64,000 nucleotides of DNA. Source: Williamsia sp. 1138. Its GTDB lineage: Bacteria > Actinomycetota > Actinomycetes > Mycobacteriales > Mycobacteriaceae. Within the stretch, counting starts at the first letter, position 1; every line of letters starts with the position of its first letter. The notes beneath the pieces are model-generated. The model saw only the letters and a program-made list of their open reading frames with translations, did not search any database and was not told where the DNA came from. The stretch covers positions 186,001-250,000 of the forward strand of contig NZ_MJEJ02000051.1 of the NCBI RefSeq assembly GCF_002095435.2. Direction: 5' to 3'. Positions 8,831 to 13,149 of this stretch are shown here, one piece after another. A program made the position numbers and the translations under genes.

Positions 8831-9172
8831 TCAGCGCTTTTCTTTGATCTTGGCAGCCTTGCCGCGCAGGTCGCGGAGGTAGTACAGCTTCGCGCGACGC
8901 ACGTCGCCGCGGGTGACGACCTCGATCTTCGCAAGGTTGGGGCTGTGCACGGGGAACGTACGCTCCACGCCTACACCGAACGACACCTTGCGGACGGTGA
9001 ACGTCTCACGCACGCCACCACCCTGACGACGGATCACAACGCCCTTGAACACCTGGACGCGTTCTTTCGAACCCTCGATCACCTTCACGTGAACGTTCAG
9101 GGTGTCGCCCGCACGGAAGTCGGGGATGTCGTCGCGCAGGGACTTGTTGTCCAAGAAGTCCAGAGTGTTCAT
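8831..9172 (-). CDS. rplS: 50S ribosomal protein L19
   Basis: L19 lies at the interface between the large and small ribosomal subunits. The 113-aa protein has the expected length and conserved blocks: [19 protein letters not shown], '[24 protein letters not shown]' and '[39 protein letters not shown]'. It heads rplS-lepB-rnhB-DUF2469 on the minus strand. It may be read from its own promoter in the 77-base gap upstream or from the trmD side. A possible hairpin in its leader covers the region just before the ATG. Confidence 0.97.
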
Positions 9173-9249: not shown

Positions 9250-10221
9250 CTACGGCTCGACTGGTTCGTGCTCCGATTCGTGTGGTCTCCGCGACGTCTC
9301 AGCCTCCGCGGGCGCGCCGGGCTGCTGACCGTCAAACGGCAACTGGTCAATTGTGCCAGAAGCACCCCCGCCAGGCGAAATCGCCTCGGTCAGCACGAGC
9401 CCAGCGGACTCGCCCTTGGCGGGGGCGGGATGGACCTTGGCGTTCAATTCCTCTTCGGCGCCCGACTTGGCGTGCGCGACGTCGGGTTTACCGGCCATGA
9501 GGTCTTGCATGAAGATCTTGGCCCGGATGAGTGGCCTGCGCACCCGGCGTTCCCGTCTGACGGCGGCATTCATCTTCTTCGGCCGTTTCGTGTAACGCCA
9601 GCGAGCCCATGGTGAGGTCGGACGGGCGAGACGGATGGCCGCGACCACGAGCAGCGGGAAGATGAACAAACCGATGAGACCTGTCCAGATCTTTCCTTTG
9701 AGCAGCACGAGCCCGGCCAGCGCCAGGACCACTCCCGAGTAGATCACCGCGGCGGCCGTTGCAGCGACGTCGTTGGTGTCGGCACCCCACCAGTCGAGCG
9801 GGTGGTAACCGAGGAGGATCAATCCCATGACCGCCATTGCCACGAACACGGCATCGAGGGAGGCGCGCCCCTCTTCTGCCCAGTAGACATCGCGTAGATA
9901 GAAGATCAGCGCGAACTCGTCCAGGACCAGCGCAGCACCGACGCCGAAGAGTGCGGCGAAGATCGACAGCGTCGTCTGAGAGCCGTTGATGGCCAGAGCG
10001 ATCAGCCCGAGGCCGGACAACATCGTCAGCACGGTGCCGAAGACGACGTGATGGATGTGCAGCCCGCCGGGGGTGACGTTGTTGAACCACCAGCTGACCT
10101 CGGCTCGGATCAGCCGCACGCTGATGCGGATCCCCAGGAATCCCAGGATGAAGCCGATGTAGGCCATGAACAGAGGTAGTCGGCCGTTGTCGATGATGTT
10201 CTCGGTGAACCAGTGGCCCAT
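9250..10221 (-). CDS. Conserved integral membrane protein, function unknown
   Basis: Protein of 323 aa with about six membrane segments in residues 15-200 and a basic, charged cytoplasmic tail (about 205-323) rich in Arg, Lys, Glu and Pro. Visible segments include '[17 protein letters not shown]', '[20 protein letters not shown]', '[23 protein letters not shown]', '[15 protein letters not shown]' and '[14 protein letters not shown]'. A His-rich motif [10 protein letters not shown] precedes the second segment and an Asp-Glu pair lies inside the third, so metal binding or transport is conceivable. I do not recognise a named family. It is the last gene of the cassette lying between trmD and rplS, 9 bases after the 144-aa gene. 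Confidence 0.8.
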
Positions 10222-10230
10222 GGGGTCAGA

Positions 10231-10665
10231 TTAGTCGCCGCCATGGTCGCGCAAGAGGTTTGCGACCAAAGACGCCGATCCTGTGGCGGCGCACGCCTCG
10301 CACGCGACTTCGCGCAACCCCTCTCGGCCGCCACCGCCGACCCCGAACTCGAGGGCGGCGACAGCACGCGCACGAGCGAACACAGCCCGATACTCGGCGT
10401 CGCGGCCGGCGTGGGACGCGGCGAGGGCGGCGGTGTCGAGGCGGCCCCGGAGCGCCGCGATCTCCAGACGCTGGTGCGCCGCGGCAGGTCGCCCGGAACG
10501 CCAGGTCTTGAGCGCTTCGGCGACCGGCCCGTCGGCCGGGACGGCTGCGGTGTCGAGGGCGGCCACGGCGATCAGCAGACCCACGCGGTCCAGCTGCCTG
10601 GAATCGACCCGGTCTACCAGTCCCGCGACCCCTGCGCCCAGGACATCGATGCGATGAGGGCTCAT
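10231..10665 (-). CDS. Hypothetical protein of the EspC/YbaB-like cassette
   Basis: Protein of 144 aa, Ala-rich and predicted mostly helical, with no signal peptide or membrane segment. It begins MSPHRIDVLGAGVAGLVDRV and contains a C-terminal 'CEACAATG' motif with two close Cys. Its ATG overlaps the stop of the 333-aa gene by four bases (ATGA), so the two are translationally coupled and probably work together. By position it could be a chaperone, an immunity protein or a regulator for the larger protein; nothing in the sequence decides this. Not recognised. Confidence 0.72.
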   Translation of the reverse strand: MSPHRIDVLGAGVAGLVDRVDSRQLDRVGLLIAVAALDTAAVPADGPVAEALKTWRSGRPAAAHQRLEIAALRGRLDTAALAASHAGRDAEYRAVFARARAVAALEFGVGGGGREGLREVACEACAATGSASLVANLLRDHGGD

Positions 10666-11663
10666 TGCGCCGACCCCGCTGAGTCTTCGTGGCCGGCGGG
10701 GTCGAGCGCGTGCGCCCCTGAGTCGTTGACCGCCGCGGCCACCTCGGGTGGCGGTGGTGACGCTGCGCAGACGGCCAGGGGAACGAGCTCGGCGTCCCGG
10801 AAGTATCCGAGGATGGCGAGTTCGGGTGCGCGCCCGTCGCCCACCACCACCTCGTGCGGCTCAGGAGCCACGCCCGGTCTCAGATAACCGGCAGGCTCAC
10901 TTGTCCCGACGACAACGGTGCGGCGACCGTTCGGGTCGACGCCCAGACCGACAGCCACCCGGATCCACGGCGCGACCTCAGGAGGCTGGGTTGCGGACAG
11001 AACGGCGGCCCGGGCGCGCAACATGATCAGGTCCGCGTCGGACGGCTGTGAGTCCCCCGCTGCGGCGACAGCACGACCTGCGGCGATCCCGGCAAGGGCG
11101 GCGCCCATCGGGGCCATCATCGCGCCCGGCGTCATCGGCATACCGCCGGACTGCTGACCATGCTCAGCGCTGGTCTCCTCCACCGCCCCCTGCGAGATCT
11201 GGGCTGCGTGCCGGTCCAGCTCTGCCGCGGTGGCCGCCATCGTGCGCGCCGCGAAGTGCTCCGCGCCTGCCAGCGGCGTGGTGTCGCCGGTGGCCGCCGC
11301 GAGCAATGTCCCGGCGAGCAACTCCCGATCCGCGATCGCCGCGACAACGGCCAGTCGCTGCCTCGTCTGCTCGACCGCATCGGCGTAGGCCCGGACCACC
11401 TCGGCGATGCTGCTCACCTTCTCGGCGCTCGCGTGCAGGGCGCGAACCGTCGACGCACCCACGGCGTCTGCGGCCACCGCCGTCTGTCCGTCGATCGCTC
11501 CGGACACTGCGCGGGTCCCCTTGTCGATCGCCCAGGTGCACTCCGAGATCCGCTGCTGCACTGACTCATAACGCTCGGCGAGAAGGTACAGGGCGGCCGC
11601 GTCGATCTCGGGGGCAAGTTCACGTAACAACGACCCGACCGGTTCGCCGTAGCCGGTCGGCAT
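10662..11663 (-). CDS. ESX/WXG-like helical protein with C-terminal alpha/beta domain
   Basis: Protein of 333 aa in three parts. Residues 1-165 are helical and Ala-rich ('RYESVQQRISECTWAIDKG', 'SSIAEVVRAYADAVEQTRQRLA'), similar in style to EspB/PPE/WXG-type secreted proteins. Residues 165-205 form a Gly/Met/Pro linker (GGMPMTPGAMMAPMG), common in ESX-associated proteins. Residues 220-315 look like a compact alpha/beta domain ('WIRVAVGLGVDPNG', 'VVVGTSEPAGYLRPGV') resembling, from memory, C-terminal domains of mycobacterial ESX-linked proteins. No signal peptide. It overlaps its upstream neighbour by one base (TGATG) and its downstream neighbour by four. Secretion by a type VII system is plausible but not shown; no EccC-type genes are in the window. 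Confidence 0.7.
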   Translation of the reverse strand: MPTGYGEPVGSLLRELAPEIDAAALYLLAERYESVQQRISECTWAIDKGTRAVSGAIDGQTAVAADAVGASTVRALHASAEKVSSIAEVVRAYADAVEQTRQRLAVVAAIADRELLAGTLLAAATGDTTPLAGAEHFAARTMAATAAELDRHAAQISQGAVEETSAEHGQQSGGMPMTPGAMMAPMGAALAGIAAGRAVAAAGDSQPSDADLIMLRARAAVLSATQPPEVAPWIRVAVGLGVDPNGRRTVVVGTSEPAGYLRPGVAPEPHEVVVGDGRAPELAILGYFRDAELVPLAVCAASPPPPEVAAAVNDSGAHALDPAGHEDSAGSAQ

Positions 11664-11998
11664 CAGTGCCCCGCCCCGGGCGACCCGGATGCGGCATCAT
11701 CTGCGTCCTGGTTCACCAATACCTCGGCAGCTCGGGTCAGGCCGCCGGCATAGCCCGCGGCAGCTGCGCGCGCCTCGTCGAGAGCGGCAACGGCCTCGGC
11801 ACTGAGTCGGCTGTGGGCGCGGGCGAAGACGTGCCCGCTCGCATGGGCCCGACACGTCGACGCGATCTGCCCGGCGAGTTCATCCAGTTCCGACGAGATC
11901 GCCGCGAGCTCGGTGAGAACCGGTTCGAGTTCTCTCACCGCCGCGTGAACTGCGGCCGCATCGATCCGAAGTTCCGACCCCGGTAGTGCTGCCGGCAT
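11663..11998 (-). CDS. EspC/WXG100-like small helical protein
   Basis: Protein of 111 aa with the look of the EspC-type ESX family. A short 'LRIDAAAVHAAVRELEPV' opening is followed by two long Ala-rich helices (about residues 14-50 and 60-95) with an AHASGHVFARAHSRL turn between them. No WXG is present, and the typical C-terminal secretion motif Y-x-x-x-D/E is only partly visible (YAGGL). Its stop shares one base with the start of the 333-aa gene (TGATG). Pairing of a small EspC-like protein with a larger helical partner is typical of type VII secretion substrates. Confidence 0.68.
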   Translation of the reverse strand: MPAALPGSELRIDAAAVHAAVRELEPVLTELAAISSELDELAGQIASTCRAHASGHVFARAHSRLSAEAVAALDEARAAAAGYAGGLTRAAEVLVNQDADDAASGSPGAGH

Positions 11999-12021
11999 TC
12001 GCGCCTCCCCGATCTGTCGAC

Positions 12022-12372
12022 TCAGTCCAGATCCCGAAGATGGGGACCCTGGTCTTGGACGATCCCGGCCACCAGTTGGTTCCGGCGAGCGGTCAGTTCA
12101 CTGTCCGCCCGCTCGACCAGATCGCGGATGAGCATCGACAGCTGATCGGCGCGGTGTCGCCGCAGCGCGAGCGGAGCGATGTCGAGGTCGGTCAGCATGC
12201 CTCTGGCGTTGATCACCACCCTGACCAGACGGTCGGCGGACATGGCCTCCACGGTGACGGAACCGAGTTCCTGCGCGACCGCCCGCAACTGTTCCCGTTG
12301 CTCGTCCACCTCCCCCAACAGCGCATCCCAGGCCCGGTTCATCTCACCGGACCTCGTCGATTCTGCGACCAT
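12022..12372 (-). CDS. YbaB/EbfC-family DNA-binding-like protein
   Basis: Protein of 116 aa resembling YbaB/EbfC nucleoid-associated proteins: an N-terminal helix (AWDALLGEVDEQREQLRAVA), a central sheet (SVTVEAMSADRLVRVVINARGMLTDLDI) and a C-terminal helix with Arg residues. Divergent YbaB-like proteins are often encoded beside WXG/EspC genes in actinobacteria and are not the main nucleoid EbfC. It is the first gene of the cassette, 27 bases after the trmD stop and 23 bases before the EspC-like gene, so transcription may continue from trmD. Confidence 0.75.
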   Translation of the reverse strand: MVAESTRSGEMNRAWDALLGEVDEQREQLRAVAQELGSVTVEAMSADRLVRVVINARGMLTDLDIAPLALRRHRADQLSMLIRDLVERADSELTARRNQLVAGIVQDQGPHLRDLD

Positions 12373-12399: not shown

Positions 12400-13149
12400 T
12401 TAGCCCGCGGGGGCGCCACCGGTGGGGTCTGCGGAGTCTGTGGACTCGCGAGGCAACAGATCTGGACGCCGCGCCCGGGTACGGGCGATCGACTGCTCGG
12501 TGCGCCAGCGATCTTGTTTCGCGTGGTCACCGCTCAGGAGTACCGGCGGCACGTCGAGTCCACGCCACGTCGGTGGACGCGTGTAGCTCGGACCTTCGAG
12601 CAGACCATCGGAGAAAGAATCCTGCTGGTGCGAGTTCTTGTTGCCCAAGACCCCGTCGATCAGGCGAACGGTGGCCTCGACCATGGCCATCACGGCCACC
12701 TCACCGCCGATCAAGACGAAGTCGCCCAGTGAGACCTCCTGCACGCGAACACGTTTGGCGGCATCGTCGAAGACCCTCTGGTCGATGCCCTCGTACCGTC
12801 CGCAGGCGAACACGATGTGGCTCTCGCGACTCCACTCCTGCGCGGTGGCCTGGGTGAACGGAACGCCCGCAGGGGTCGGTACGACCAGGAGCGCGTCGTC
12901 GGGGCAGACCTCGTCCAGGCACGGCCCCCACACTGTGGGTTTCATGACCATGCCCGGACCACCGCCGTACGGGGAATCGTCCACTGCGCGGTGGACGTCG
13001 TGGGTCCAGTCCCGCAGGTCATAGGTGTCGAGCGCGAGGATTCCACGGTCGATGGCCTTGCCCAGCAGTGCCATTCGCATCGGTTCGAGATATTCAGGAA
13101 AGATCGAGACCACGCCGATCCGGATGGCCGGGTCGCTCCCCTGGCTCAT
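12400..13149 (-). CDS. trmD: tRNA (guanine-N1)-methyltransferase TrmD
   Basis: TrmD methylates G37 next to the anticodon of several tRNAs with S-adenosylmethionine and prevents +1 frameshifts. The 249-aa protein has the SPOUT trefoil-knot fold. Seen are '[13 protein letters not shown]' at the N terminus, '[15 protein letters not shown]', '[13 protein letters not shown]', '[18 protein letters not shown]' and the C-terminal '[21 protein letters not shown]', all family hallmarks. Its start overlaps the rimM stop by four bases (ATGA). It is part of the rpsP-khpA-rimM-trmD cluster. Confidence 0.97.

Follow-up and report, generated by a model that had tools for sequence, protein, structure and literature searches.

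Adjacent Williamsia genes match consecutive parts of the EspK C-terminal domain in predicted fold and may encode a split chaperone for type VII secretion

EspK (Rv3879c; Protein Data Bank (PDB) entry 8AKO) is the chaperone of EspB in ESX-1, a type VII secretion system. According to the part of the source available to us (PMC9811218), its C-terminal helices 9-10 hold the helical tip of EspB, either F659D or K663A abolishes binding, its fold is unrelated to that of EspG, and it has been taken as specific to mycobacteria, searches having found only mycobacterial proteins. The YbaB-like proteins EspD, EspH and EspL have been proposed as stabilising chaperones of Esp proteins (available parts of PMC6107294 and PMC6319747). 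For members outside the mycobacteria, for example Nocardia and Gordonia, ESX-4 is given as the sole type VII system (available part of PMC11217815); a 2016 survey, also available in part, called its function unknown and described, for some genera, an extended ESX-4 that includes espG, pe and ppe (PMC4791881). Here we describe a gene module between trmD and rplS of Williamsia sp. 1138, in a stretch of 64,000 nucleotides (contig NZ_MJEJ02000051.1, positions 186,001 to 250,000; hereafter the window). Two of its products, P333 and P144 (333 and 144 amino acids), together probably form a split EspK-type chaperone, with an EspC-like partner, a YbaB/EspL-like helper, an EspB/PPE-like client encoded elsewhere and export of the ESX-4 type.

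In its predicted structure, P333 has a WXG100/PPE-like helical N-terminus, a disordered linker (residues 169-203) and a C-terminal alpha/beta domain (209-320) with a deaminase-like fold. When the predicted folds were compared with PDB chains, the best VIA match of this domain was EspK residues 484-604, and the best VIA match of P144 was residues 613-721 of the same chain. The two ranges are consecutive and in gene order, and the EspK type of C-terminal domain, an alpha/beta shell with a helical foot, is thus found in the predicted folds of P333 and P144 together. EspK was not among the 50 Foldseek matches listed for P144; it emerged from a second look with VIA, at 149 chains. EspK residues F659 and K663, required for EspB binding, fall in the half matched by P144. 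Therefore, in our model P144 would be the client-binding foot, and P333 the shell with a targeting domain.

P333 appears to have an ESX-like N-terminal fold, as expected by the initial annotation of this locus. PF25547 matched the N-terminus of 4 of 19 relatives (best E 2.5e-8) and not that of the window's own protein; TIGR03930 matched weakly (E 0.024), and matches to EsxA chains in the PDB (E 0.001-0.034) became weaker once more sequences were added.

Sequence-only searches failed to link P333 or P144 to EspK. A profile alignment by hhalign of the P333 C-terminus with the mycobacterial DUF5632 part was marginal (prob 26.7, P 7e-4, score 25.8; best score in 100 column permutations, 19.8), and P144 gave nothing with the DUF5631 part (score 11.7; best score after permutation, 18.8). 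The link between P144 and EspK therefore rests on structure and genetics. We designate several genera by label; g9 is probably Gordonia, g71 probably Tsukamurella and g29 probably Mycobacterium. DUF5632 and DUF5631 occurred together in the four g29 genomes that matched both, in a single frame in the proteins aligned; Rv3899c and the other DUF5632-DUF5631 proteins thus differ from the Williamsia pair in carrying both domains in one protein rather than in two genes. One g29 genome had 7 DUF5632 and 10 DUF5631 matches, many of them clustered (G086:C1:4587000-4600000), a local expansion of EspK/Rv3899c-like genes. Near-cut-off DUF5632 matches (E 1e-4 to 1e-6) were also seen in g71 (L121, L123-L127), within open frames roughly 700-1450 codons long that lie apart from the module.

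Five minus-strand genes lie between trmD and rplS at 9250-12372, and the spacings of 27, 23, -1, -4 and 9 bases given by the initial annotation were confirmed from the open reading frame (ORF) positions; the P333 and P144 genes overlap by 4 bases. The features are as follows.

12400-13149, minus strand: trmD, upstream flank, assigned from sequence and synteny
12022-12372, minus strand: YbaB/EbfC-fold protein, 116 amino acids, PF02575 match, proposed helper like EspL, EspD and EspH
11663-11998, minus strand: EspC-like small protein, 111 amino acids, assigned from position and family profile, proposed partner of the P333 N-terminus
10662-11663, minus strand: P333, 333 amino acids, WXG100/PPE-like helical N-terminus, linker and C-terminal alpha/beta domain
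10231-10665, minus strand: P144, 144 amino acids, helical protein resembling EspK 613-721
9250-10221, minus strand: membrane protein, 323 amino acids, resident of the site and outside the module; in other genera, full-length matches lie by rplS at 13 of 21 loci
8831-9172, minus strand: rplS, downstream flank, assigned from sequence and synteny

Of 301 genomes searched in the family, 45 had a P144 match, and exactly these 45 had P333 at E < 1e-20, so that the two co-occur strictly in relatives. (Two genome draws were taken as identical because their denominators, 301, 283 and 31, were the same.) Thirteen genomes with only weak P333 matches were not counted; their best E was 2.8e-8 and all matches lay within positions 1-160, the N-terminal helices. 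Species relatedness inflates any simple probability calculated from such co-occurrence. The carriers were nine Williamsia genomes, G019 (genus g12), G023 (W. sterculiae), 15 genomes of g71 and 19 of g9, and at least 10 g9 genomes lacked both genes.

P333 and P144 were separate genes in every carrier. By coordinates, they were adjacent in 31 of the 45 and apart in 14, all in g9, and in 13 of these 14 cases P144 adjoined an EspB-like gene instead (G331 was the exception; 8 of the 14 loci were read). In two of the 13 (G370 and G376), only a C-terminal piece of the EspB-like gene lay by P144, with the rest on another contig. Six of the 14 trmD-rplS sites left without P144 were read: YbaB and P333 were present at all six and an EspC-like gene over threshold at five, while neither P144 nor the membrane gene was at any of the six. 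The move of P144 from the locus of one partner to that of the other would be difficult to account for without some shared function.

The EspB-like genes are the candidate clients. With profile A7 at E < 1e-20, they were found in all 30 carriers outside g71 and in none of the 15 g71 carriers; among the 256 non-carriers, 7 had one, and each of these belonged to g9. A7 matches above 1e-20 were not counted because the Gly/Pro linker draws chance matches (105 of 301 genomes match at E <= 0.001). The EspB-like gene of the window's genome (C24:87960-89258) has glpK- and glpD-like genes as neighbours, with an lpdA-like gene close by, and the pairs of P144 and EspB-like gene in g9 lie among genes of these same kinds. 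(These names, and those of the dapB, citrate synthase, tex, rplM, rpsI, glmM, rplQ and truA neighbours below, were given by eye from translations.) In G023, P144 and the EspB-like gene are convergent neighbours, and at the four unsplit g9 loci 4.6-5.9 kb separate P144 from the EspB-like gene downstream of it.

In members of the EspB-like family, a linker rich in Gly/Pro joins an N-terminal part without repeats to a conserved tail with the core LPLVGPPV, followed in most members by GDW. No Pfam match was found in five members tested (from Williamsia, g12 and g9), and a PDB sequence search of the family found no EspB chain; "EspB-like" therefore names an architecture only. YxxxD/E was present in 7 of 15 and WxG in 5 of 15 of these proteins, at varying places. 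The tail is possibly a recognition or processing signal and, to our knowledge, has never been described before. Of 61 genomes searched, 32 had it, on ESX-type proteins rich in Gly/Pro (for example L213:7970-8137, minus strand). In G016, a g9 genome without P144 and P333 (L251/L260), a tail-bearing ORF that A7 matches weakly (E 2.3e-5) occupies the place between trmD and rplS.

Eleven tail loci of other genera were read. All five tail-bearing proteins tested matched PPE at E < 0.01, three of them over the cut-off, and the five EspG-looking neighbours tested by profile were all PF14011 over the cut-off. At the other six loci, the neighbour in L243 was EspG-like by eye and five showed no EspG in the stretch read. 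Some genera thus place EspG where g9 places P144. The likeness to EspG with PE-PPE is that of a chaperone gene beside a PPE-type gene, with EspG adjoining the tail-sharing proteins in some genera.

The YbaB-like protein was a firm PF02575 match in Pfam (42.4 bits against a cut-off of 25.5), while the other four products were below every curated cut-off in Pfam and NCBIfam. As a small YbaB-fold gene beside Esp-type genes it recalls the chaperones EspD, EspH and EspL; it differs from them in sitting in a module without an ESX core, and its suggested kinship with EspL is one of likeness. By sequence, the label "EspC-like" of the initial annotation is weak. Position and family profile favour it; PF10824, the EspC family, matched a single member of 13 (E 0.0011) and missed the protein of the window, which as a lone query against 101 genomes of the order retrieved nothing but itself.

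For export, the window's genome has a single EccC over the family cut-off. Its locus also holds EccD and an Rv3446c-type protein, near rplM-, rpsI- and glmM-like genes. The locus is ESX-4-like when set against the gene orders of ESX-4 and ESX-1 in M. tuberculosis.

From gene order, predicted folds, co-occurrence and the adjacency of P144 to substrate genes, all of which were computed, we infer a P333-P144 complex, its binding of the substrate and ESX-4 export. The alpha/beta shell of P333 would dock with P144, and P144 would hold the helical tip of the EspB/PPE-like substrate. The complex would keep the substrate monomeric and ready for export, and the WXG100/PPE-like N-terminus of P333, paired with the EspC-like protein, would bring it to an ESX-4-type EccC ATPase. 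The YbaB-like protein may stabilise, by analogy with EspD, EspH and EspL.

The module shares with EspK the fold of both halves of the C-terminal domain, a helical ESX-like N-terminus, a low-complexity linker, and linkage to EspB-like and YbaB-like genes. It differs in having two proteins for one, outside any ESX locus and outside Mycobacterium. In addition, sequence similarity is marginal, and the N-terminal WxG stated for EspK in the available part of PMC9811218 is missing in P333. The distribution of motifs weighs against our model: WxG occurs in 1 of 19 P333 relatives, near the C-terminus, and in none of 13 EspC-like proteins; YxxxD/E is scattered in 6 of 19 P333 relatives (at residue 26 in the window's) and absent from all 13 EspC-like proteins. 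A different signal would be required.

Among other explanations, a secreted ESX pair of P333 and the EspC-like protein (of the EspA/EspC or PE/PPE type), with the YbaB-like protein and P144 as chaperones and only an indirect link to the EspB-like genes, is a less probable alternative. The small-then-large gene order, the N-terminus of P333 and the neighbouring YbaB-like gene, as in Esp operons, would all be expected from it. It does not account for the EspK chaperone fold in the P333 C-terminus or for P144 being next to the EspB-like gene, and not P333, in nearly all separated cases, and the unconserved WxG and YxxxD/E count against it as well.

The PF02575 match and the placement between trmD and rplS could also be explained by a nucleoid- or translation-linked operon, with YbaB as a DNA- or RNA-binding protein and the remaining genes acting together with rplS and trmD in growth-rate control. 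This is improbable, as the module is located elsewhere in both W. sterculiae and genus g12, and P144 is linked to EspB-like genes. For M. tuberculosis EspL, the available part of PMC6319747 rules out a direct effect on espE/F/H transcription, with whiB6 having fallen in the mutant.

The initial annotation proposed type VII substrates or an effector-immunity pair. The link to type VII secretion was supported, through the N-terminal half of P333, the YbaB-like gene and the ESX machine in the genome, and the second proposal was not supported: that P333 is an ESX effector and P144 the matching immunity protein is very improbable in spite of the overlapping genes, the variable N-terminal half of P333 and the deaminase-like fold, since the P333 family has no invariant His or Cys, the two genes are apart in 14 of the 45 carriers, P144 tracks both P333 and the EspB-like gene, the set is kept in every genome searched of the genus, and both parts match one chaperone domain, resembling an EspK cut in two. 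A deaminase toxin was rejected for the lack of an invariant His or Cys and for the separated loci, and an anti-phage system because a PADLOC search admitting E values up to 1 matched none of the five.

For ESX-4, a candidate chaperone and a candidate client can now be named. The predicted folds place the EspK fold in Williamsia and related genera, in two genes, outside any ESX locus and in a genome with a single EccC. The split module hints at an export route older and more widespread than thought. A broader scenario is possible, though less likely than not: the EspB-EspK route may predate ESX-1, using outside mycobacteria ESX-4 and a two-protein chaperone derived from a deaminase-like fold that has lost catalysis; the piece that binds the client could move to the client's gene, and mycobacterial EspK may be a later fusion. 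ESX-4 would then gain a defined chaperone and client. In these harmless bacteria one could ask whether the client is held by one half of the chaperone or by the other. The split EspK module is new as far as we searched the literature, most subscription papers being outside the search: we found none joining Williamsia with type VII secretion; the available parts of papers on EspK and Gordonia describe no such module; and titles and abstract openings on EspK/EspB with ESX-4, Tsukamurella or Nocardia, or on DUF5631/DUF5632, report no split EspK.

P333 was present in all nine Williamsia genomes searched, including that of the window, and the order trmD - YbaB - P333 - P144 - membrane gene - rplS was kept in all eight relatives' loci read; the layout is therefore more than chance. 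The EspC-like gene was detected by tblastn at 3 of these 8 loci and by profile at all 7 loci given to the profile search. (Alignments A1-A4 were made without L018, which is near-identical to its neighbours, and A3 also without L107, with its frameshifted P333, and L108.) In g71, YbaB, P333 and P144 were in order at 8 of 8 loci, with an EspC-like gene (E < 0.01) at seven, and the two loci read showed trmD - sensor kinase - YbaB - EspC-like - P333 - P144 - tex-like - membrane protein - rplS. Four g9 loci (L093, L097, L098 and L218) have the four module genes after trmD in the Williamsia arrangement. In G023, the first two module genes are swapped and the module adjoins a citrate synthase-like gene; in G019, a dapB-like gene is nearby and an EspB-like gene of 395 codons comes just before the module.

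The suggested unit of five genes was not supported, and the membrane protein was rejected as a module part because it is found by rplS where the cassette is missing. The 21 rplS loci from other genera each included about 1.5 kb of flanking sequence per side; those without a full-length relative had a C-terminal piece (2) or nothing (6). In two of the 13 full-length cases (L038 and L039), trmD was in view directly before the membrane gene. P333 was present in only 2 of the 21 genomes (G023 and G019), on other contigs than rplS, and in G023 trmD and the membrane gene are less than 30 bases apart at the trmD-rplS site. The protein matched nothing in Pfam or NCBIfam despite its conservation next to rplS.

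Scans for signals said little: there were no promoter-like sites, and four terminator-like sites, all on the plus strand. In L107 (G304, a genome 83% complete), P333 is split by an apparent frameshift, an assembly error or decay. A Williamsia-type locus was seen in L057 (NZ_JNYV01000001.1), titled Kitasatospora arboriphila, which is probably a mislabelled genome. A second ESX-type set in the window's genome (G000:C21:86000-95000, L255), after rplQ- and truA-like genes, carries genes for PE, EspG and WXG100 together with a YbaB match below threshold; an EspG route therefore exists as well in this genome. Relatives have copies of this set that also include PPE, EspC and a full YbaB match, and an EspA/E-like gene that is whole in relative L257 looks interrupted in the window's genome.

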